Both the position numbers and the translations under genes were made by a program. A stretch of 64,000 bases of DNA from NCBI GenBank assembly GCA_951812325.1, contig OX638294.1:4006859-4070858 (forward strand). Direction: 5' to 3'. Under the pieces are notes generated by a model, which did not search any database, had not been told where the DNA came from, and saw only the letters and a list, made by a program, of their open reading frames with translations. The first letter of the stretch is position 1, and every line of letters begins with the position of its first letter. This document shows positions 1-42,771 of this stretch, piece by piece. This DNA is from an uncultured Thermoanaerobaculia bacterium (GTDB taxonomy: Bacteria > Acidobacteriota > Thermoanaerobaculia > Multivoradales > Multivoraceae).

Positions 1-185
1 GAACTCCCGCGCCGCCTCGGCCTGCTCAAGACTCCTTGACCGAAGGGCAACCCCCGTGGCGGACCCTCATGGCGGAACCCCCGCAGTCCTTTCCGATCCT
101 GAGGTGACCGTCAACAGGGCAGAGCTCGCGCGAGTCGATTCCGATCGCTGCTACCGGAGTCGTTCCGGGGCGGCAGCAGGCCAAA

Positions 186-330
186 GCCGTTCCAAAGTCG
201 GGAACTTCGGTGACCGATCCGCGGAAACCACTCCGGAATCGGCAACTCCGCACCGGCACGGCTCTCGACCATCGGGACTGAAGGCCTCCCGCCCGCTCCC
301 AGCGTGGAGCGCTGGACCTTGGAATGGTCC
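186..330 (+). repeat. Dispersed ~145-bp repeat, copy 1
   Basis: This block matches 13977-14121 over its whole length in the same orientation, with about one mismatch per ten bases and almost no indels. Both copies run from GCCGTTCCAAAGTCGG to TGGAATGGTCC. The last bases recur again at 53613-53640. Both full copies lie outside coding sequence. No terminal inverted repeats or target duplications are visible, so it is not an obvious MITE. Confidence 0.85.
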
Positions 331-551
331 TGCGGCAGCAGGCGCGCCAGCTTGACGACAGAGCGTGAATGGCCTAGCGTAGCTGAGACTCAGTTCATGA
401 AAACGGCCAGCCAGCCGACGGACTGGAAGCTGGCCGAGGTGGGGGCACCTATGGGCATCGACGCCAAGTGCCGACCGGGAGAGGGCGTTAGCCTTGTTGC
501 ATCGGGTCTTGTAGCCCTTGGGGGCCTAGGGCATCCGACCCCCTACCCCTA

Positions 552-574
552 CCCCCCCCCCCCCCCCCCCCCCC
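552..574. repeat. 23-nt poly-C (poly-G) homopolymer
   Basis: An uninterrupted run of 23 cytosines is preceded by CCCCCTACCCCTA, so the minus strand carries G-runs of 23, 4 and 5 separated by TA. That is a strong potential G-quadruplex (minus strand) or i-motif (plus strand). The run sits about 360 bp upstream of the coiled-coil gene at 933. The exact length may be affected by sequencing or assembly error, which is common at such tracts. Confidence 0.9.
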
Positions 575-932
575 AGAAATCTGAGCACCAGATCATCACA
601 TCCGCTCCTCGTCCTTCGCGGCGCGGGGGGCGGGTCGTTGGCTGCTCGGCTGAACCCCTCAATCAAGGCGCGCACCACGCTCGACCGGCTGCCGCCGGCC
701 TGACCGGACTTTCGCGGAACCGGGAACTCTCCGCCGGAAGGCGCGAGCTACCCGCAGAGGTCCAGAGCCGCAGTCCCGACGACGGCGGCTGCGGCTCCAG
801 GCGCATTGGTTCTTCCCGTCCTCGGACCGCCGCCTACGAGAGCCGGCGTGACCGGACCACCGAATACAACCCCGGCCGGGCCTTGAACTGTCCGACGCGC
901 CGGGACGACATGAGTACCACACGGGGTGCCCG

Positions 933-1955
933 ATGAGTGACAAACAGAACTCCCAGGAGAACGGCAGGAAAAGGAAGCCGCCTTGGGAATGGTCGGTTTC
1001 GGCGCAGCTGTTCCTGTTCGCGCTGGTCATTTTCGCTGCCATGCTGATCTTCCTCGTTCCGCCGGCGCTAGCGAATCTGCTCGGTTTGACCGCCGGACCC
1101 GGCGCCAACTGGGTTGCTCCGTACGTGGCGTTGACCGGCGTTCTGATCAGCGGCGTATACATCTTCACGACCTTCCGCATTGACCGCGGCGTCAGATTCG
1201 AAGCTCGTGACGCGGCCAAGAAGGAGGCTCGCAAGAAAGCCGGAAAGGAGGCTCGTAAAGTGGCTCGCGAGCTTCTTTGCGATGCGACCTTGAAGAAAGT
1301 GGCCCTCGAAGCAAAGAAGTCGCGTGCCGCAGCCGAAAGCGCTGCCAAGGCGGCGCACAAGGCGCGCGACGCCGCGAAGACCGCCACGAACGCCGCGGAA
1401 AAGCAACGGGACAACGCGAGCGTCGCTGCGGATGGGGCGAGCAATGCGCGTGCCGACGCCGAAGGGGCTGCGAAGGCGGCACAAGAGGCGCAAGAGGCCT
1501 CCGAAACCGCCGCGGGCAAAGCAGGGGAGCAACGGGACAACGCGAGCGCCGCTGCGAATGGGGCGAGCGATGCGCGTGCCGACGCCGTAGAGGCTGCAAA
1601 GGTGGCCCAAAAGGCGCGAAAGGCTTCCGAAAGCGCCGCGGGCAAAGCGAAGAAGCAACGCAAAGCCACGAGCGATGCTGCGGATGGGGCGAGCGATGCG
1701 CGTGCCGACGCCGCGGGTGCGGCCAAGGCGGCGCAAGAGGCGCGCGGCGCCTCCGAGGCTGCCGCGGCCGACGCGAGCAGGGCACGCGACGCCGCGAGCA
1801 AGGCACGCGACGCCGCGAGCGATGCTGCGGATGGGGCGAGCCAGTCGCGTGACAACGCTGCGCGTGCAGCCGAGGGTGCGCAACGGGCGCGCGCCGAAGC
1901 CGAAGGGGATACGGACAACGCCGGGGACGGCGATGTGCCGGTGGATGACGACTGA
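933..1955 (+). CDS. Membrane-anchored alanine-rich coiled-coil repeat protein
   Basis: 340 residues, family not recognised. A short basic N-terminus (about 1-25) is followed by two hydrophobic segments (about 26-52 and 60-80), then a long Ala/Lys/Arg/Asp-rich helix to the C-terminus with an acidic tail. Residues about 160-290 contain three copies of a 42-residue unit built around ADGASNARADA; 42 residues equal six heptads, so the repeats keep coiled-coil register. The predicted topology is an inner-membrane hairpin with a long helical rod, which could be cytoplasmic or periplasmic. The downstream gene at 2037 encodes a membrane-anchored OmpA-like protein 82 bp away, so the two may act together across the envelope. 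That link is inference. The start ATG at 933 has no strong ribosome site. The high-GC repeat also opens long false frames on the opposite strand. Confidence 0.75.
   Translation: MSDKQNSQENGRKRKPPWEWSVSAQLFLFALVIFAAMLIFLVPPALANLLGLTAGPGANWVAPYVALTGVLISGVYIFTTFRIDRGVRFEARDAAKKEARKKAGKEARKVARELLCDATLKKVALEAKKSRAAAESAAKAAHKARDAAKTATNAAEKQRDNASVAADGASNARADAEGAAKAAQEAQEASETAAGKAGEQRDNASAAANGASDARADAVEAAKVAQKARKASESAAGKAKKQRKATSDAADGASDARADAAGAAKAAQEARGASEAAAADASRARDAASKARDAASDAADGASQSRDNAARAAEGAQRARAEAEGDTDNAGDGDVPVDDD
1428..1805 (+). repeat. 126-bp tandem repeat (3 units) inside coiled-coil gene
   Basis: The sequence GCGGATGGGGCGAGC and its variants recur at 1428, 1554 and 1680, exactly 126 bp apart, and a degenerate further copy begins near 1827. 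The unit encodes 42 residues, so loss or gain of units keeps the frame and the heptad register. Such arrays are prone to length change by recombination. Confidence 0.85.
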
Positions 1956-2036
1956 GCATGGCGACGCCGATGACCGCGAACCCGAAGCAGAAGGACCCTG
2001 CCGCCGGCAACAGAGCGAGAAAAGGAGGACACCACC

Positions 2037-2849
2037 GTGCTGACTCAGGACCAGATGCGCAACATGGGGCTCTGGACCGGGTTCCTTGCGTTCCTCCTCG
2101 CCTCGCTATTCGCCATTCTGATCGTCGCTCTGTTCGAGGAGCCGCGCGAACCGAGGCTCCACCCCGAGGGAGACACGGTCGTCGTCGTGAATGTGGACGA
2201 CCCTTCAAACGTCGCCACGCCATGGCCGGATCCACCGCAGGATCCACCGCCGAGTGTGGTGCTTGATCTCAACGTGAACGCGGTCGGCGGATCGCCGGCG
2301 CAACCGGCGCTGGCGCCTTCCGCGAGCGGCGCCGGAAACCCCGTGCAGACCGTCGTCAATGTAAGCGGATCGCCAGGTTCACCGACCGTCAAGAACAGGC
2401 AAGACCTGACGGTTCTTGTGGAAAACGCCGAATCCCCCGCCGAGCAGGAACCGCTCTGCTCGAAGCGCGGAGAGACGCCGGACGGTCCGTTGCCCTGCGC
2501 GACCGCGGAACTGCTGGGCCGAATCCGCTTCGACGCCGGCAGCCGCAGGATCACAGCCTGGCACCGCAGCGATGTCGAGACGGTCGCGATGGAGCTCGGC
2601 AGCCGCACCGGCGCCCTGCTCGTGGTCGGCCACGCCGACAGGTGCGGGAACTTCAGGCTCGCCGAGCGCCGGGCCAGGAAGGTCCGAAGAAACCTGCGCC
2701 GCCACCTGAAGTCGCGGCCAGACTGGCCGACCGGGCAAACGCGCGTCCACGCCCAGGCCTCGGGCGAGGACCCGGGAGCACCCGAGAACACCTGCGAGGA
2801 GCGGCACTACGGCACCGCGGGGGTCTACCTGATCAAAGGTCTGGAGTGA
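2037..2849 (+). CDS. Membrane-anchored OmpA-like domain protein
   Basis: 270 residues. One N-terminal membrane helix (about 12-32) is followed by a proline- and valine-rich, low-complexity periplasmic region (about 35-130) and a C-terminal OmpA-like module (about 150-270). In the module, RIRFDAGS starts the domain, and LLVVGHADRCGNFRLAERRA resembles the GHTDxxG...LSxxRA core that binds peptidoglycan in this family. Cysteines at about 142, 152, 203 and 255 may form disulfides. The start is GTG at 2037, chosen because a strong AAAGGAGG site lies 8-10 bases upstream. It follows the coiled-coil gene by 82 bp on the same strand, so co-transcription is likely. OmpA-like domains anchor motors or envelope machines to the wall; here the partner is probably the coiled-coil protein. 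The family assignment is good, the specific role unknown. Confidence 0.75.
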   Translation: MLTQDQMRNMGLWTGFLAFLLASLFAILIVALFEEPREPRLHPEGDTVVVVNVDDPSNVATPWPDPPQDPPPSVVLDLNVNAVGGSPAQPALAPSASGAGNPVQTVVNVSGSPGSPTVKNRQDLTVLVENAESPAEQEPLCSKRGETPDGPLPCATAELLGRIRFDAGSRRITAWHRSDVETVAMELGSRTGALLVVGHADRCGNFRLAERRARKVRRNLRRHLKSRPDWPTGQTRVHAQASGEDPGAPENTCEERHYGTAGVYLIKGLE

Positions 2850-2986
2850 AACCACGGAGCACGCCGCTGCCTGCAGGGTGGCGAAGGCAATTGAGCTTGC
2901 CGAACCTGCAACAACCGGTCGCCTCGCGGCATGTGGCCGAATTCCCGCTGGTCCCAACACGTCAGCAGCAACGCCGGTACAAAATT

Positions 2987-3011
2987 CCGGGAGCCTCCGA
3001 AGGCTTCCCGG
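2987..3011 (+). promoter_or_regulatory. Leader hairpin upstream of protease copy 1
   Basis: CCGGGAGCCT and AGGCTTCCCGG form a 10-bp stem with one bulged T and a CCGA loop. It lies 79 bp before the ATG at 3066. The same hairpin is at the same distance before the second protease gene. There is no T-run, so it is more likely an mRNA leader structure or protein site than a terminator. Confidence 0.55.
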
Positions 3012-3065
3012 CCTGTTCGCGCGACAAGTCGATCTCATGACCCGCTTTCGAGGAGAGGAAAGACC

Positions 3066-5036
3066 ATGTTCAACAAGACGAAAGACCTGACCTTGGCCGT
3101 TTTCGCTGCCGCTTCCCTGACCTTCGCTGGGGGTGCGGGTCCTGTCGATGCACAGGATCTGGAGGAACTGGGCATCCCGCTTTGCGGAGGAGCAATCGTG
3201 CCGGACGTGCCGGAAGATGTGCTCATGCATGTCCCCGAGGCAGGAACCGGCTCGTCCGCCGCGACAACGCATCTGAAAAAGGCTGATCCGGACAGGATTC
3301 ACGTGATCGACATCGCTTTCATTCATGCTGGATCCATCTCTGACAGAGCGAAGCTCTTGCGGAATGCGGAGGCCGCCGTTCTCAGAGCGAACGTGATCTT
3401 CGCTCGATCTGGCGTGAATGCGAGATTGAGAACTGTTGCCGTCAGGCCTGATCACCAATATGGTATCTCGCTTGATGGGATGGGTTTAGTTAGAGCAATA
3501 GGTCAAGTCCAGAGTGTTCTTTCAAGAGTAAGAGAGGACTATGGCGCAGATCTTGTTTATGCTCTAAGCGTCGAAGAAAATCCACGGGCCTGTGGTCGGG
3601 CTTTCGTCAGGGGCGGTTTGAATCTAGACATTGAATCCGCTCGTCAGTACTTTTCTACAGGTGGAATCTGGAATGGCACAAACCATGACGGATGCTTTGG
3701 AGATAATTGGACTTTGGCGCATGAAGTGGGGCACAATCTTGGGCTCGATCATAATATAGAAAGCCTCCGAAGAACACCACTTTCGTTTGTTTCTTATGGC
3801 CTGGGTTGGAAGAAAAAGAATATCAATGATCGATCCTATACTACCGTGATGGGAATTGGGGGTTCACGCTTTAACCGCTTTAGCTCAGACTCCGTTCATC
3901 ATGGTCTTCGCATGGGTACAAGCAGTGCCAATGCAGCAAAGGCTCTGCTGTATACGATCGAGGACGCGTCCAACTATTCGCCAACCAGGGTTCCAGATCC
4001 CGTTCTGGATTACGAGTGTTCCGAATCCTCTACTGCCACGTGTTTGCAGAGCGGCCGTTTTCGGGTCGAGGCCAGGGTGTCCTACGTGGATTCATCCGGA
4101 GAGCGGGTGGAGAATGCCCGGGCGAAGGTGCGCAGAGCCCTGATCAATGGGGTGACCCGGACGACCTCGCTGTTCTACTTCTTCGGCGAGAGCAATCCGG
4201 AGCTGCTGGTCAAGGTGGTCGACGGTTGCGGGGTCAATGGCAGGTACTGGGTTTTCGGTTCCGCCGGTACGGACCTCGACCATCAGGTGATCGTGACGGA
4301 CAACGCGACCGGTGTCACGATTCCGTATCATCGAAATGCGGCCCGGTCGTTGATCAACGACACGAACGCTTTCCCGTGCGGCGGCTCCGAAGTTCTCGGG
4401 CATCGCACGAGTCCGCTCCGGGCCGGGCAGCAGGCTTTGGGCCCCCGGTCCGCGCAGGATACTGGAATGCGCAGGTCTGCTCGACCGAGTGAACGGCAGG
4501 CCGTTTTCGCGGCAGCGGCGGCCGACCCCGTACCCCGCTCTGGCCTTTCTGGCCGGCATGCCAGGTCCGCCGCAATGGCGGCTGACCCCTTGCTTCCGGA
4601 CCTTCAGGACCGCCCGCATCGTGGCGGCCACGGGGCACCGGGCCCCGCGGAAGATTCTGCCGGTGCCTCGCGAGACTTCGGTTGTCTGTTGCCAGGGACG
4701 TCAGCCTTTTGTCTACAGGATGGCAGGTTCAAGGTGAGCGGCCACGCAATCAAGCCTGATGGCGAAAGAGTAGCTGCCAAGATGAAGGATGCCGTGATCG
4801 GCGACGAGGCTTCCCTGTTCTACTTCTTCGAGTTCGACAACGTGGAGCTCCTGGTCAAGGTTCTCGACGCCTGCGGCGTGAACGGCAAGTACTGGGTGTT
4901 TGGGTCAGCGGCGACCGATCTGGAGTACACGATCGAAATCGAGGACATGGCTATGGCCAGGGGACAAAAGAAAACGTATAGCCGCAACAGCGCCAACCCT
5001 CTGATCAACGATACGAATGCCTTCGCCTGTGAGTAG
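3066..5036 (+). CDS. Secreted metzincin-type zinc metalloprotease, copy 1
   Basis: 656 residues. A signal peptide (about 1-29, ending near VDAQ) is followed by a reprolysin-like catalytic domain (about 40-300). Residues 219-229 read HEVGHNLGLDH, the HExxHxxGxxH zinc site of metzincins; TTVMGIGG about 45 residues later fits the Met-turn. Two copies of one C-terminal domain follow (about 318-436 and 540-656), each with FYFF, VKVxDxCGVNGxYWVFGSA and LINDTNAF. They are joined by a low-complexity, Gly/Ala/Arg-rich linker of about 100 residues. The ATG at 3066 was chosen because it starts the signal peptide and follows AGGAGAGGAAAG; an upstream extension of the frame lies in the leader. The middle of the catalytic domain is visibly AT-richer than the flanks. 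It probably degrades extracellular protein; the substrate is unknown. A paralogue follows at 5913. Confidence 0.85.
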   Translation: MFNKTKDLTLAVFAAASLTFAGGAGPVDAQDLEELGIPLCGGAIVPDVPEDVLMHVPEAGTGSSAATTHLKKADPDRIHVIDIAFIHAGSISDRAKLLRNAEAAVLRANVIFARSGVNARLRTVAVRPDHQYGISLDGMGLVRAIGQVQSVLSRVREDYGADLVYALSVEENPRACGRAFVRGGLNLDIESARQYFSTGGIWNGTNHDGCFGDNWTLAHEVGHNLGLDHNIESLRRTPLSFVSYGLGWKKKNINDRSYTTVMGIGGSRFNRFSSDSVHHGLRMGTSSANAAKALLYTIEDASNYSPTRVPDPVLDYECSESSTATCLQSGRFRVEARVSYVDSSGERVENARAKVRRALINGVTRTTSLFYFFGESNPELLVKVVDGCGVNGRYWVFGSAGTDLDHQVIVTDNATGVTIPYHRNAARSLINDTNAFPCGGSEVLGHRTSPLRAGQQALGPRSAQDTGMRRSARPSERQAVFAAAAADPVPRSGLSGRHARSAAMAADPLLPDLQDRPHRGGHGAPGPAEDSAGASRDFGCLLPGTSAFCLQDGRFKVSGHAIKPDGERVAAKMKDAVIGDEASLFYFFEFDNVELLVKVLDACGVNGKYWVFGSAATDLEYTIEIEDMAMARGQKKTYSRNSANPLINDTNAFACE

Positions 5037-5052
5037 AGAGGCCGCCGGCTGG

Positions 5053-5801
5053 CCACTTTCGGCTCCGAATCTGGTGACGCTCGGCTGCGGGACGCGGAGG
5101 CGCAACACCCGCTTGCCGTTCGAGCAGAGAACGACCTCACGGCCACGGCAACTTCTCCGTGTGCGCGCGCCGTCCGCGGCCAGGCTTGCCGCGAGTCCCT
5201 CCACGTCAGGCAACGCGGCCTGTGCGCGTGCGGTCCAAACGGCGTCGCGCTCGGCCAGAAGGCCGCGCTGGCAACGCCGCGTGTGCGCGGTCCGTCCGCG
5301 GCCAGGCCCGCCGCGAGTCCCTTCACGTCAGGCAACTCCGCGTGTACGCGGGCCGTCCAGGGGTCCGTGGCGACCTACATGTCGCTCGGCTCGGCAACTC
5401 CGCTCGTGCGCGGGCAGTCCGGTCCGCATCAAGCAACGCCAGCGGCCACAGCCGGTCTCCGGCTGCGCAACCTTTTTGGCCTTTTCGTGAGGCTGCGTGG
5501 CCATCAGATGGAGAAAGACAGCCGAGTCACTGGTGGTCTGGAAGACCGATCCCGCCGTCTCCAGTTCGTAGCGGGTCGTGCCTCAGGAGCGTCGCCGCGA
5601 AGGGCCACGCTCGAGGCCCCGCCAATCGTGGCGACCGGTGGTCTGGTGGCCTTTTCTGGCCCTCTACCGCGCCAATCGCGCTGCCGCCCGGATGGTCCGG
5701 TCCGGCACCTTTCGGCGGCAGCGGACCAGAGCATCCGCGCACCCGGAATACGGCGCAGCGGTGATGAGCCCCCTTCCTGCGTCCGTTGATTGTCGCCGTG
5801 A
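5053..5801. other. Intergenic region between duplicated proteases
   Basis: About 750 bp separate the two duplication blocks. Apart from the 61-bp array I see no gene. Open frames here are short, differ between strands and have no family resemblance; minus-strand frames over the array show repeated peptides only because the DNA repeats. Confidence 0.6.
5148..5432. repeat. ~61-bp imperfect tandem repeat, about 5 units
   Basis: Units start near 5148, 5209, 5270, 5331 and 5393, each with GGCAAC followed by a variant of CCGCGTGTGCGCG and GTCC. Units 1 and 3 are the most alike, sharing CCGTCCGCGGCCAGG and GCCGCGAGTCCC. The array lies between the two protease genes. There are no unique spacers between identical repeats, so it is not CRISPR. 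Confidence 0.7.
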
Positions 5802-5833
5802 CAACACGTCAGCAGCGACCCAGGTGCACGATT

Positions 5834-5858
5834 CCGGGAGCCTCCGAAGGCTTCCCGG
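5834..5858 (+). promoter_or_regulatory. Leader hairpin upstream of protease copy 2
   Basis: Identical in sequence to the hairpin at 2987-3011 and again 79 bp before the start codon, while the bases just upstream of it differ between copies. Conservation of spacing supports a role in expression, although the duplication may simply be recent. Confidence 0.55.
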
Positions 5859-5912
5859 CCTGTTCGCGCGACAAGTCGATCTCATGACCCGCTTTCGAGG
5901 AGAGGAAAGACC

Positions 5913-7889
5913 ATGTTCAACAAGACGAAAGACCTGACCTTGGCCGTTTTCGCTGCCGCTTCCCTGACCTTCGCTGGGGGTGCGGGTCCTGTCGATGCAC
6001 AGGATCTGCAGGAACTGGACATCCCGCTTTGCGGAGGAGCAATCGTGCCGGACGTGCCGGAAGATGTGCTCATGCATGTCCCCGAGGCAGGAACCGGCTC
6101 GTCCGCCGCGACAACGCATCTGAAGAAGGCTGATCCGACCAAGATTCACGTGATCGACATAGCTTTCATTTATGCTGGATCCATCTCTGACAGAGCGAAG
6201 CTCTTGCGGAAGGTGGAGGCCGCGGTTCTCAGGGCGAATGTGATCTTCGCTCGATCTGGCGTAAATGCGAAATTGAGAACTGTTGCCTTCAGGCCTGATC
6301 ATCAATATGGCATTTCATATGACGGTGCTATCGATCGTTCCCATGTTGATCGCGTATTTAGAGAATTGGCGAAAGCTCTACCCGATGTGCGGGCTGATTA
6401 TGGAGCCGACCTTCTCTACGCCATAACCGCTGAACGTCCTGGGCCTTGCGGTTATGGTTTTGTTCGTACAAAGGGCGCGGACGTAGATTTTGCTCGTAAG
6501 TACACTTCTCTTGGTCTGATCCGGAATGGAACAGGCAATTTCGGATGCTTGGGAGATACTGATGTTCTAGCCCATGAGGTGGGGCATAATCTTGGGCTCG
6601 ATCATAACATAGAGAACGCCACAGGATTAACTCCATTTGTGTCTTATGGCAGAGGCTACCAAGGAAGGAATATCAATGATCACAGCTACGGTACAGTGAT
6701 GGCGGTTGGGGCAAGCACCACATTTTACCGGTTTAGCACGAACTCCGTTCATGATGGTCTTTCAATGGGTACAAGCGATGCCAATGCAGCAGAAGCTCTG
6801 CTGTATACGATAGAGGATGCGTCCAACTATTCTCCAACCAGGATTCCGGATCCCGCTCCGGATTACAAGTGTTCCGAATCCTCTACTGCCACGTGTTTGC
6901 AGAGCGGTCGTTTTCGCGTCGAGGCCAGGGTGTCCTACGTGGACTCATCCGGAGAGCGGGTGGAGAATGCCCGGGCGAAGGTGCGCAGAGCCAGGATCAA
7001 TGGGGTGACCCGGACGACCTCGCTGTTCTACTTCTTCGGCGAGAGCAATCCGGAGCTGCTGGTCAAGGTGGTCGACGGTTGCGGGGTCAATGGCAGGTAC
7101 TGGGTCTTCGGTTCCGCCGGTACGGACCTTGACCATCAGGTGATCGTCACGGACAACGCGACCGGTGTCACGATTCCGTATCATCGAAATGCGTCCCTGT
7201 CGTTGATCAACGACACGAACGCTTTCCCGTGCGGCGGCTCGGGAGTTTTCGGGCATCGCACGAGTCCGCTCCGGGCCGGGCAGCAGGCTCCGGGCTCCCG
7301 GTCCGCGCAGGATACTGGAGTGCGCAGGTCTGCTCGACTGCGTGAACGGCAGGCCGTTTCCGCCGCAGCGGCGGCCGACCCCGTACGGCGCTCGGGCCTT
7401 TCTGGCCGGCGGGCCACGTTCGCCGCAAAGGCGGCTGACCCCTTGCTCCCGGACCTTCAGGACGGCCCGCACCGTGGCGGCCACGGGGCGCCGGGCCCCG
7501 CAGAAGATTCGGCCGGCGCCCCGCGAGACTTCGGTTGTCTGTTGCCAGGGTGGTCAGCCGTTTGTCTACAGGATGGCAGGTTCAAGGTGAGCGGCCACGC
7601 AATCAAGCCTGATGGCGAAAGAGTAGCTGCCAAGATGAAGGATGCCGTGATCGGCGACGAGGCTTCCCTGTTCTACTTCTTCGAGTTCGACAACGTGGAG
7701 CTTCTGGTCAAGGTTCTCGACGCCTGCGGCGTGAACGGCAAGTACTGGGTGTTCGGCTCAGCCGCGACCGATCTGGAGTACACGATCGAAATCGAGGACA
7801 TGGCTATGGCCAGGGGACAAAAGAAAACGTATAGCCGCAACAGCGCCAACCCTCTGATCAACGATACGAATGCCTTCGCCTGTGAGTAG
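5913..7889 (+). CDS. Secreted metzincin-type zinc metalloprotease, copy 2
   Basis: 658 residues, same architecture as the gene at 3066: signal peptide (about 1-29), reprolysin-like catalytic domain, zinc site HEVGHNLGLDH at 221-231, Met-turn region GTVMAVGA, then two copies of the shared C-terminal domain separated by a ~100-residue linker. Residues 1-135 and about 300-658 are almost identical to copy 1. Residues about 136-290, which form the catalytic cleft apart from the zinc helix, are strongly different and need small indels to align. This suggests the two enzymes cut different substrates. The linker differs between copies by scattered substitutions without frameshift. The start and ribosome site are the same as in copy 1. 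Confidence 0.85.
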   Translation: MFNKTKDLTLAVFAAASLTFAGGAGPVDAQDLQELDIPLCGGAIVPDVPEDVLMHVPEAGTGSSAATTHLKKADPTKIHVIDIAFIYAGSISDRAKLLRKVEAAVLRANVIFARSGVNAKLRTVAFRPDHQYGISYDGAIDRSHVDRVFRELAKALPDVRADYGADLLYAITAERPGPCGYGFVRTKGADVDFARKYTSLGLIRNGTGNFGCLGDTDVLAHEVGHNLGLDHNIENATGLTPFVSYGRGYQGRNINDHSYGTVMAVGASTTFYRFSTNSVHDGLSMGTSDANAAEALLYTIEDASNYSPTRIPDPAPDYKCSESSTATCLQSGRFRVEARVSYVDSSGERVENARAKVRRARINGVTRTTSLFYFFGESNPELLVKVVDGCGVNGRYWVFGSAGTDLDHQVIVTDNATGVTIPYHRNASLSLINDTNAFPCGGSGVFGHRTSPLRAGQQAPGSRSAQDTGVRRSARLRERQAVSAAAAADPVRRSGLSGRRATFAAKAADPLLPDLQDGPHRGGHGAPGPAEDSAGAPRDFGCLLPGWSAVCLQDGRFKVSGHAIKPDGERVAAKMKDAVIGDEASLFYFFEFDNVELLVKVLDACGVNGKYWVFGSAATDLEYTIEIEDMAMARGQKKTYSRNSANPLINDTNAFACE

Positions 7890-7949
7890 AGAGGCCGCCG
7901 GCTGGAGGCGCCCACGGGGCCAGACGCCTGTTTGGAGGGAGGGCCGGGC

Positions 7950-8261
7950 TCAGGCGTGGCGCAGGCTGCGATCGAGCGCGTCGCTCATCTGGCGGAGGCG
8001 GTCCGCTTCGGCGTGCGAGAGCATTCCTCCGTGCTCGCAGGCGCCGATGGTCCGGGTCATCTCGTTGAGGCGGTCGAGCGCCTCATCGGGCGCCGCACGC
8101 CTTGTCGCGGGCGCGTGAGCTGCGGCGAAGAGCAGGGTCGAGACGGTCAGGGCGAGTCGGCGCAGTCGCTGGCGCGGCGGCGCCGGGGACGCTTCCTCCT
8201 CGGAGGTTGCGTGGTAGACATCGGCGAGCAGGACTCGCGAAATCGCGTATGCATCCTTCAT
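7950..8261 (-). CDS. Small hypothetical protein with one hydrophobic segment
   Basis: 103 residues, not recognised. After a 30-residue polar N-terminus, residues about 33-50 (LRRLALTVSTLLFAAAHA) are preceded by arginines and could be a membrane anchor or a late signal sequence. The remainder is charged and probably helical (LDRLNEM, HAEADRLRQMSDALDR). The ATG at 8261 was chosen over a longer upstream frame because AGGAGGAGG lies 7-8 bases before it, one of the best ribosome sites in the window. It lies between the protease duplication (opposite strand) and apaH (same strand, 131 bp upstream). No function can be given. Confidence 0.65.
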   Translation of the reverse strand: MKDAYAISRVLLADVYHATSEEEASPAPPRQRLRRLALTVSTLLFAAAHAPATRRAAPDEALDRLNEMTRTIGACEHGGMLSHAEADRLRQMSDALDRSLRHA

Positions 8262-8392
8262 GTCGTTCGCCTCCTCCTGTCGATCCCCGGATGTGGATCG
8301 GCACCCTTCAGAAGGTACAACGCATCGGCGCCCGGATTGGTTTCCGGGAGAACCCGAAGAATCTGCGGAGGCGGCGGCGGTCTTCGGTTCGC

Positions 8393-40188: not shown

Positions 40189-42771
40189 CTACCTGCAGTC
40201 GAATGCCCCGGCGTCGGCGATCGGCAGGAATGCCTGCCCGAGCGGATTCACGTACACATGGCGGGTCCGGGTGACCGGGTCGGCGACTTCGAGCTCCACC
40301 TCGAGATCGGTCAGGCCGGCGGCGTAGAGCCAGTACCTGCCGTTGGTCGCGCAGCCATCGAGGACCTTCACCACGATCTCGACGTTGGAGGCGTCGAAGA
40401 AGCTGAAGTAGCCGGTGTCTTCGGTGAGCAGGACGCCGTTGCCGAGGCCGGTTTCGCCCAGCCGGGTGGCCCAGCGGACCCGTGCCCGAAAGCGACCCCC
40501 GTTCAGGCACAGCGTCGCGGCGTCCGCGACGCATTCCCCGATCGGCTCGTTCGGACCGCTGTCGGCCTCGTCGATCGTGATGACCATGCGCCGCTCGCCG
40601 AGAGCCGCGCCGCCGCGAGGGTCGCGGAGTTCGAGTTCGATCGTCTCGGTCTCCTCGCTGACGGCGTCGGCCAGGAGGTGGAGAGTCAGGGCCTTCGCGT
40701 CCCTGTCGCCGTGGCCCCAGGCGAGAGTGCGGACAACCGGCCGGTAGTCCACATTCGGGGCGGCCGAGCCGCCGGCAGTTCGCGCCTCGACGCTGACCGC
40801 GCCGTCGCTGCCGTCGGTGCGGACCACGCTCAGAGCGACCTCGCCGTCCGACTCCCGCACCGTGGCCGTCGCCCCGGGGAAGCTCAGGGTGCCCGGATGC
40901 TGCTCCGGCAGCTCCGAGGCGAGGGAGAGAGCAACCAGTTCGGCGTCGTCGCCCTCCGCGCCGACCGCGACGACGACGTACTGGCGCCCGGAGGCCGTGT
41001 AGCTCATCGGTACCCCGGAGGCCCTTCCCGGCAGGGGGATCGTGCGCAGCACATCGCCGGTCGCGGCGTCGAAAACGGTGAGCACCGCCCGCGACCGGTT
41101 GGCGTAGAACAGGAGTTCCCGGGTGGCGAGGACGGACGCGGTGCCGGCGTAGCCGTTGAACCCGTCGTTCGCGCGCTGCCAGAGAATCTCGCCCCGGTTG
41201 AGGTCGTAGGCGGTGATGTGGCCCCAGGGCGGCTTGAGCAGGTACCGGCCGCCGGGGGCGCCGAGGACGCCGGTCTCGTACAGAAGGTAGTTCGGTATGG
41301 CCGTGCGGTACAGGCGGACCTGGAAGGGAACCACACCCAGGACGGGGACGTAGAGGGTCGATCTGGTCGGGTCGAACGCCGCGCCGCCCCAGTTCGCGCC
41401 GCCGCCGAGGCCGGGAGAGATCACGGCGCCGCGGGTGGACGGCGGCGTGTAGATCGGCCCCCAGTCGAGATCGGCGAGTACCTCCTCCGCGCCGTCGTTG
41501 AGTTCGTCCCGTGCGATTCCCTGACGGTCGAAGGGCGGTGGCCTGGTCGGTTGGGGCTGGGTGAGCGCGGTTCGTTCGCCCGGCGCCTGCGACTGCGGCA
41601 CCGGCACTTCGGGGATCGGCCAAACGGGCCTGCCGTTCCGGCGGTTGAGGACGAAGACCCAGCCCTGCTTCGTGACCAGGGCGACGGCGGGGATCTCCCT
41701 GCCGTTGACCGTGATGTCGACCAGGTTGGGCGGCGCGGGAAGGTCGAAGTCCCAGATGTCGTGGTGGACGACCTGGTAGTGCCAGACGCGGCGCCCGGTC
41801 CGGGCGTCGAGGCAGACCAGGCTGTTGGCGAACAGGTTGTCGCCCTTGCGATGGCCGCCGTAGAAGTGGTTCGAGGGAGCGCTGACCGGCAGGTAGACGT
41901 AGCCGAGTTCCAGGTCGGCGGTCATCGGCGCCCAGACGTTGGCGCCGCCGACCCGCTCGGCGGCGCCGTTCTCCCAGGTCGAGTAGCCGAACTGGCCGCG
42001 GCGGGGCACGGTATGGAAGGTCCACAGGAGCCGGCCCGTCCGGGCGTCGTAGCCGCGGACGTTGCCCGGCGGCCACTCGGGCTGCGGCGCCCAGTCCATG
42101 ATCGACGACCCGACGACCAGCACGTCGCCGACCACCGTCGGCGGGGACGTGTGTCCGTACTGGTCGGACCTGTTGTTGAGTGAACGAATCCCCGCCTTGA
42201 GATCGACGGTTCCCCCGTTGCCGAAGCTGCGGCGCGGCGTTCCGGTGGCTGGATCGAGCGCGATGAGGCGCGCGTCGCCGGTGGCGAGGTAGACGTTCGC
42301 GGTCTGGCCGTCCGTCCACCAGGCGAGTCCGCGATGCAGAAAGCCGTTGTTCGGGGGGCGGCCGGAGAGGTAGCTCTTCGGGTCGTGGACCCAGATCTGC
42401 TCGCCCGTTTCGGCGTCGATCGCTGCCGCCTGACTGAAGGAGGTGCTGGTGTAGAGCACGCCGTCGATCATCAGGGGCGTCGCCTCGAAGGCGACGATGC
42501 TCCGTTCTCCGCCCGGCTCGGCAATCGCGTTGTCTGGGGAAGCCCAGCGCCAGCGGATGGCGAGATCCTTCAGGTTGCCGCGATGGATCTGGCCGAGCGG
42601 CGCGTACTTCGTGCCGCCGGCGTCGCCGCCGTACTCCCGCCATTCGCCGCCGACAGCGCCGTGCTGGGCGGCCGCCGGCGCGCCGGCCGCTGCCGCGGCC
42701 AACAGGACAACGGCGACTCCGGCCGCAACCGTGGCCAGCGGGTTGGACCTCGAAGTCATCCTCGAAGTCAT
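40189..42771 (-). CDS. Exported PQQ-type propeller protein with Calx-beta and shared C-terminal domain
   Basis: 860 residues. A signal peptide (about 1-35) precedes an eight-bladed quinoprotein propeller (about 45-620). EWREYGGDAGGTKYAPLGQI at the start and repeats such as LDARTGRRVWHYQ and ITAYDLNRGEILWQ are typical of PQQ-dependent dehydrogenases. A Calx-beta-like module (about 640-735) follows, then a C-terminal domain (about 745-860) with SFFDASNVEIVVKVLDGCATNGRYW, the same domain as in the two metalloproteases. It probably oxidises a sugar or alcohol in the periplasm with electrons passed to a cytochrome; the substrate cannot be told. GAGGCGAGG lies just before the ATG at 42771. It is 151 bp downstream of the heme protein gene, a possible electron acceptor. 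Confidence 0.83.
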   Translation of the reverse strand: MTSRMTSRSNPLATVAAGVAVVLLAAAAAGAPAAAQHGAVGGEWREYGGDAGGTKYAPLGQIHRGNLKDLAIRWRWASPDNAIAEPGGERSIVAFEATPLMIDGVLYTSTSFSQAAAIDAETGEQIWVHDPKSYLSGRPPNNGFLHRGLAWWTDGQTANVYLATGDARLIALDPATGTPRRSFGNGGTVDLKAGIRSLNNRSDQYGHTSPPTVVGDVLVVGSSIMDWAPQPEWPPGNVRGYDARTGRLLWTFHTVPRRGQFGYSTWENGAAERVGGANVWAPMTADLELGYVYLPVSAPSNHFYGGHRKGDNLFANSLVCLDARTGRRVWHYQVVHHDIWDFDLPAPPNLVDITVNGREIPAVALVTKQGWVFVLNRRNGRPVWPIPEVPVPQSQAPGERTALTQPQPTRPPPFDRQGIARDELNDGAEEVLADLDWGPIYTPPSTRGAVISPGLGGGANWGGAAFDPTRSTLYVPVLGVVPFQVRLYRTAIPNYLLYETGVLGAPGGRYLLKPPWGHITAYDLNRGEILWQRANDGFNGYAGTASVLATRELLFYANRSRAVLTVFDAATGDVLRTIPLPGRASGVPMSYTASGRQYVVVAVGAEGDDAELVALSLASELPEQHPGTLSFPGATATVRESDGEVALSVVRTDGSDGAVSVEARTAGGSAAPNVDYRPVVRTLAWGHGDRDAKALTLHLLADAVSEETETIELELRDPRGGAALGERRMVITIDEADSGPNEPIGECVADAATLCLNGGRFRARVRWATRLGETGLGNGVLLTEDTGYFSFFDASNVEIVVKVLDGCATNGRYWLYAAGLTDLEVELEVADPVTRTRHVYVNPLGQAFLPIADAGAFDCR

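Follow-up and report, generated by a model that had tools for sequence, protein, structure and literature searches.

Young flanks and an old catalytic core in a tandem pair of secreted metzincin genes, with recurrent gene conversion as the probable cause

We analyzed a 64,000-nucleotide (nt) stretch of DNA (hereafter, the window; contig OX638294.1 of assembly GCA_951812325.1, positions 4,006,859 to 4,070,858) from an uncultured Thermoanaerobaculia bacterium, and in it two adjacent protease genes on the same strand, A (3066..5036, +; 656 amino acids, aa) and B (5913..7889, +; 658 aa). Both are intact open reading frames (ORFs) of the same architecture, specifying in order a signal peptide, a cysteine-bearing pro-region, a reprolysin-type metzincin domain, a first repeat, a linker and a second repeat. 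The genes show two divergence ages, with near-identical flanks on either side of a far older catalytic core, at equal ratios of nonsynonymous to synonymous divergence (dN/dS); the flank blocks are themselves unequal in age, the 5' flank shows a gradient, and recombination of a like kind occurs at other loci of the genus. The explanation that we consider probable is that recurrent ectopic gene conversion between old tandem neighbors refreshed the flanks and skipped the catalytic core.

Divergence between the two genes

In a codon alignment, the nucleotide identity of A and B is 0.90-1.00 over residues 1-120, drops to 0.43-0.79 in residues 121-280, a region that carries several small indels, and past residue 281 rises from 0.85 to 1.00. 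Synonymous divergence (dS) is 0.10 for residues 1-136, 1.13 for alignment columns 137-280 and 0.087 from 346 onward, with dN/dS values for the same three blocks of 0.39, 0.37 and 0.37. Since the approximately 11-fold contrast in dS between core and flanks is found at constant dN/dS, the core is older, rather than faster-evolving or positively selected. A scan of the codons that specify the same amino acid in both genes placed the most divergent interval at columns 130-277, where 36 of 77 such codons differ compared to 29 of 467 elsewhere (log-likelihood ratio 37.2; permutation maximum 8.5, n=40).

An earlier note, made from the sequence alone, had described near-identical flanks and a diverged core with indels around an unchanged zinc helix. 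The codon alignment and the permutation scan confirmed the first part of that description, and the even substitution rate that would have spoken against it was not seen, dS being uneven by about 11-fold; the dN/dS of the core, which the note had proposed to examine, gave no sign of positive selection. The zinc-binding helix, HEVGHNLGLDH, recognized by its sequence and a Pfam match in A (3720..3752, +) and identical as protein in B (6573..6605, +), is unchanged only at the protein level, as its synonymous sites have diverged to a dS of 1.1, like the remainder of the core. Its identity in protein despite that dS indicates that the helix is held by function and was not copied.

All of the blocks lie on the forward strand. 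The diverged core comprises 3474..3887 in A and 6321..6740 in B, and the homogenized 5' flank, consisting of 82 nt of non-coding DNA and codons 1-136, comprises 2984..3473 in A and 5831..6320 in B. Repeat domain 1 (4011..4379 in A and 6864..7232 in B) is also homogenized, with a dS of 0.075, and is followed by a GC-rich linker (4380..4670 in A, 72% GC; 7233..7523 in B, 75% GC) corresponding to aa 447-548, which is less similar (~90% of nt) than the repeats on either side of it. Repeat domain 2, taken together with the stop codon and the next 16 nt, occupies 4671..5052 in A and 7524..7905 in B. The duplicated unit thus exceeds the ORFs, as the non-coding stretch 2984-3065 matches 5831-5912 with zero differences and the shared sequence stops 16 nt beyond the stop codon (5052 and 7905).

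Age of the parts and a single-copy relative

The flanks differ in age among themselves. There is no neutral difference between A and B through codon 60, and dS then climbs to ~0.27 beside the core, so that differences on the 5' side increase toward the core (p=9e-5). The neutral differences amount to 0 of 121 at the 5' end versus ~19.5 of 238 in the C-terminus (p=3e-4), and to 10 of 58 in codons 61-136 (p=7e-6 versus the 5' end). For calibration, the DNA surrounding the locus is ~97% identical in the nearest congener (G016), whose pooled dS to the window genome is 0.080. The flanks of A and B are accordingly about as young as the split from this sister species, and the cores more than 10 times older.

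Only one close homologue came up among the genomes scanned, a single-copy gene, L100, that is 61% identical and lies on contig JAPONP010000004.1 of the metagenome-assembled genome (MAG) 'Bacteriovoracales bacterium isolate APA_bin_12', which belongs to another phylum. The contig could be misbinned, but its GC content (0.448) is within the range of the other sampled contigs of the MAG (0.42-0.49). No gene like L100 was found in the other 128 genomes of Bacteriovoracales searched, and 149 genomes of the class to which the window belongs yielded nothing exceeding ~42%. In the core the three proteins are nearly equidistant (aa identity 0.55 for A-B, 0.53 for A-L100 and 0.52 for B-L100), in contrast to the flanks, where A and B share 0.88-0.97 but A and L100 only 0.71-0.74. 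Consistent with these distances, the trees lose resolution from the N-terminal flank to the core, the grouping of A with B having a support of 100 in the N-terminal flank and of 54 in the core, where the two form an unresolved trichotomy with L100. The host genome held no third close core and no close paralogue with another core, which the earlier note had suggested looking for, but only weak metzincin matches.

The relative also differs in its organization. At L100:343-2137, the protease with repeat 1 and the repeat 2 are two adjoining secreted genes separated by 37 nt, and the linkers of A and B correspond to the junction between them. As the window has one ORF where this relative has two genes, a fusion or a fission separates the two forms.

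The GC content at third codon positions (GC3) is 0.38 in the core of A and 0.42 in that of B, close to that of L100, and 0.76 in the repeats. With the linker left out, GC3 rises and falls with the identity of A and B along the sequence (rho 0.56, p=0.002), and L100 and the congeners have a weaker contrast in the same direction. This correlation is the pattern expected of GC-biased conversion, although import of a low-GC core is an alternative reading of it.

Related loci in the genus

Related patchworks were found at several protease loci of the genus, and the pattern therefore looks like a recurring trait of these bacteria rather than an isolated case. In G002, copies 1 and 2 of a tandem array have a dS of 0.053 in repeat 1 and of 2.27 in the core, and a third copy is the one nearest to copy 2 in the core (0.23) yet distant from it in repeat 1 (0.42), comparisons for which Fisher tests were run. 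In an orthologous tandem metzincin pair of G004 and G019 (L152:4896-9970 and L153:5159-9922), conversion is confined to the junction of the Fn3 and repeat domains, where 16 sites group the neighbors and 0 group the orthologues; in the catalytic part, 10 sites support the paralogues versus 116 the orthologues (p=1e-14 versus the junction). A further locus has three tandem copies in G008 and one copy each in G018, G005 and G019, and the single gene of G018 resembles copy 1 of G008 in its 5' part and then copy 3 immediately downstream of the core, where it has 0/29.7 synonymous differences from the latter.

The genes at this last locus (L060:7654-13270, L061:7410-9338, L062:5076-6917 and L066:6908-8236) are the closest relatives of A and B in the four congeners concerned, and all have lost the zinc ligands, HEVGHNLGLDH being replaced by xxVGYNLGLLxx, with the remaining domain and the repeats kept. 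Their sequences suggest a conserved family of metzincins that no longer have catalytic activity. The relative in G011 retains an intact zinc motif.

The surrounding segment

Genes A and B are located in a 7.9-kb segment (26..7947) that is absent from the sister species, which has 88 bp in its place. The segment also holds an Ala-rich ORF (933-1955) and an OmpA-like gene (2037-2849), the latter not found in any of 20 congeners. Insertion of the segment by a transposon or integrase was considered and rejected, as neither direct nor inverted terminal repeats were found at 26/7947, and a search for viral carriers found none. The spacer between A and B that is not part of the shared unit (5053..5801) includes, at 5148-5420, five degenerate copies of a repeat with a 61-nt period.

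Explanations for the pattern

Under the explanation that we favor, A and B would be a long-established tandem of genes for secreted metzincins, with cores that split long ago, at about the time of the split from the Bacteriovoracales homologue. Conversion between the neighbors would begin, recurrently, inside the parts that are still alike, and would have kept the promoter-proximal DNA, the signal peptide, the pro-region, the first protease strands and the C-terminal repeats near-identical, with tracts seldom crossing a core that is too diverged and indel-bearing. The outcome would be two enzymes with common export and accessory modules and different catalytic clefts. What we infer from the pattern is that conversion was the molecular event, that sequence divergence acts as its barrier and that the two enzymes have different substrates as a result. 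The earlier note had offered conversion of the flanks or exchange of a core cassette; recombination is upheld, with conversion of the flanks favored and import of a core disfavored. In a cassette exchange, a recent tandem duplication of the whole gene would have been followed by replacement of one core through homologous recombination, the diverged core being supplied by imported DNA or by a lost third paralogue. Such an exchange would yield the same step profile, and it fits a low-GC3 core that looks foreign against the repeats, a sole close relative in another phylum and the location of the pair within DNA that the sister species lacks. It nevertheless predicts flanks of one age, contrary to what was found, and since low GC3 and an equal distance from L100 are common to the two cores, a single import is insufficient; the lack of any other close core in the host genome likewise speaks against it. 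The unequal flank ages, the 5' gradient and the low GC3 of both cores are thus why conversion is preferred over duplication with a core swap, which we regard as rather unlikely. Somewhat less doubtful, but still well short of probable, is that the sharing of the flanks was made wholly in a donor and the finished pair received with the 7.9-kb segment, as could be expected from the absence of that segment from the sister species and of the OmpA neighbor from the congeners, and from core GC3 values like that of L100. This is a variant of the conversion model with respect to where conversion took place, so that its probability overlaps with that of the favored explanation, and it relocates conversion rather than replacing it. 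The zero-divergence 5' block, which suggests that conversion was still active recently, counts against it.

A recent duplication followed by accelerated amino-acid change in the core, through positive or relaxed selection, would be in keeping with the core being also the least conserved part between A or B and L100 (0.53 versus 0.71-0.74). This lower conservation of the protein is insufficient for an 11-fold synonymous contrast, however, and with dS raised throughout the core, zinc helix included, and dN/dS not raised, selection would need a site-specific mutation rate more than 10 times higher; we judge it very improbable. Mutagenesis directed at the core, of the kind that diversity-generating retroelements carry out, would likewise produce one variable block within a secreted protein, but it is hardly credible here. 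All six mismatch types occur, and 53% of the mismatches involve A, near the 56% of the 5' flank, with no adenine-directed pattern; moreover, the block is ~410 nt long, has indels and is diverged to a cross-phylum level, and no template repeat was seen in 2850-8300.

Several observations weigh against recurrent conversion of the flanks, or limit what can be said of it. The gradient on the 3' side is non-significant (p=0.24), the tree of the post-core and repeat 1 region leaves the grouping of A with B unresolved, though the distances are clear, and an outside origin of the core DNA could also explain the GC3 step seen there. Constraint from translation initiation may be responsible for part of the low synonymous change at the 5' end. 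As the comparison is limited to two copies in a single genome and a single close outgroup, the events in A and B are not polarizable. In addition, conversion is not universal among tandem metzincin pairs: neighbors of a conserved ~840-aa pair in seven congeners (G016, G017, G003, G001, G010, G006 and G011) are only ~36-39% alike overall, and the G004/G019 version of this pair alone is informative on conversion.

Protein features and the repeat domain

The HExxHxxGxxH zinc motif is present in both A and B, and the cysteine of the pro-region sits in IPLCGGAIVPD. A Met-turn, placed by sequence only, follows ~40 residues past the helix as SYTTVMGIG in A (methionine codon 3849-3851) and SYGTVMAVG in B (6699-6701). 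The Pfam E-values were 6e-10 (Reprolysin_3) and 1.3e-8 (Reprolysin_4) for A and 1.9e-10 (Reprolysin_4) for B, and the two proteins exceeded the curated cut-offs of both Reprolysin_3 (40.2 and 38.7 bits; cut-off 22.4) and Reprolysin_4 (35.2 and 41.2 bits; cut-off 22). The NCBIfam equivalog cut-off for Mep72 was missed by a wide margin (44.4 bits versus 645). A structure model of the protease from three sequences was too poor (predicted local distance difference test, pLDDT, 34) and was left unused.

Both C-terminal repeats are a ~110-aa domain built around LLVKVxDxCGVNGxYWVFGSA, with the wider pattern LLVKVxDxCxxNGxYWVFGSAxTDL...INDTxAFxC. There are dozens of copies in the host genome (most of 67 matches), and the domain was found in most of the 60 relatives searched; another copy lies elsewhere in the window at about 40264-40545 (-). 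No Pfam or NCBIfam model and no solved PDB structure matched it, and a model of moderate quality (pLDDT 68) is all beta and had no PDB match at E<=0.001. Repeats of the host genome were rejected as the source of those in A and B, their best identity being 43-45% versus 66-74% to L100.

Discussion

The mechanism is known in kind. PMC2795765 describes, citing Pride & Blaser 2002, concerted evolution of babA/babB and homA/homB of Helicobacter pylori via intragenomic gene conversion; these are, like A and B, paralogues whose products are secreted or lie at the surface, with conserved ends and a middle that defines the allele, and their 3' segments are reported to cluster by strain through paralogue conversion. 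They differ from A and B in being adhesins or outer-membrane proteins studied in many strains and not adjacent tandem proteases in which the escaping segment is catalytic, and homA/homB are concerted in segment 3 only, with a divergent segment 1, whereas A and B are homogenized at both ends. Long-lasting concerted evolution is also on record for prokaryotic duplicates such as tuf, whose synonymous sites are kept alike by recurrent conversion (PMC6053082); in A and B, unlike those genes, the most function-defining part is exempt. With the reprolysin-like metzincins (PF13582/PF13583) and the biofilm-associated Mep72, A and B have in common the HExxHxxGxxH helix, the downstream methionine, secretion and C-terminal accessory domains, although they are far under the Mep72 cut-off and their C-terminal repeats match no described model. 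Among the top full-text results of a literature search, the coverage of which is incomplete, there was no work on gene conversion of bacterial metzincins. The unusual feature of A and B is that homogenization spares the catalytic part of an enzyme.

The region that escapes begins after the second predicted strand and extends through the zinc helix to the Met-turn. In metzincins, such a region takes in the edge strand together with a portion of the S1' wall, and hence the substrate cleft, and the diverged region of A and B would by this correspondence cover the cleft. Both proteins retain their catalytic residues and both are under purifying selection. The simplest functional reading of the sequences is that both enzymes are active and differ in their clefts while sharing one export and accessory chassis, and a new substrate specificity, as the earlier note had proposed, is plausible.

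A broader and more tentative reading, which we think improbable as it stands, is that the tandem protease arrays of the genus are a system of recombination-driven diversification, in which the modules for export and accessory functions would be steadily homogenized with GC-biased conversion and catalytic cores of widely differing age kept or exchanged as cassettes, some of them low in GC and perhaps common to other phyla of the same habitat. If true, it would mean an enzyme repertoire on one delivery chassis. Concerted evolution that is partial and leaves a protected middle is mainly known from pathogen surface antigens, and with several independent tandem loci in the genus that show related recombination, and a protected segment that is catalytic, the question of whether conversion aids the diversification of enzymes while their delivery parts stay uniform becomes testable, through comparative and laboratory work. 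A further consequence is that any tree or identity value computed over the whole gene of such a protease averages segments of very different histories.

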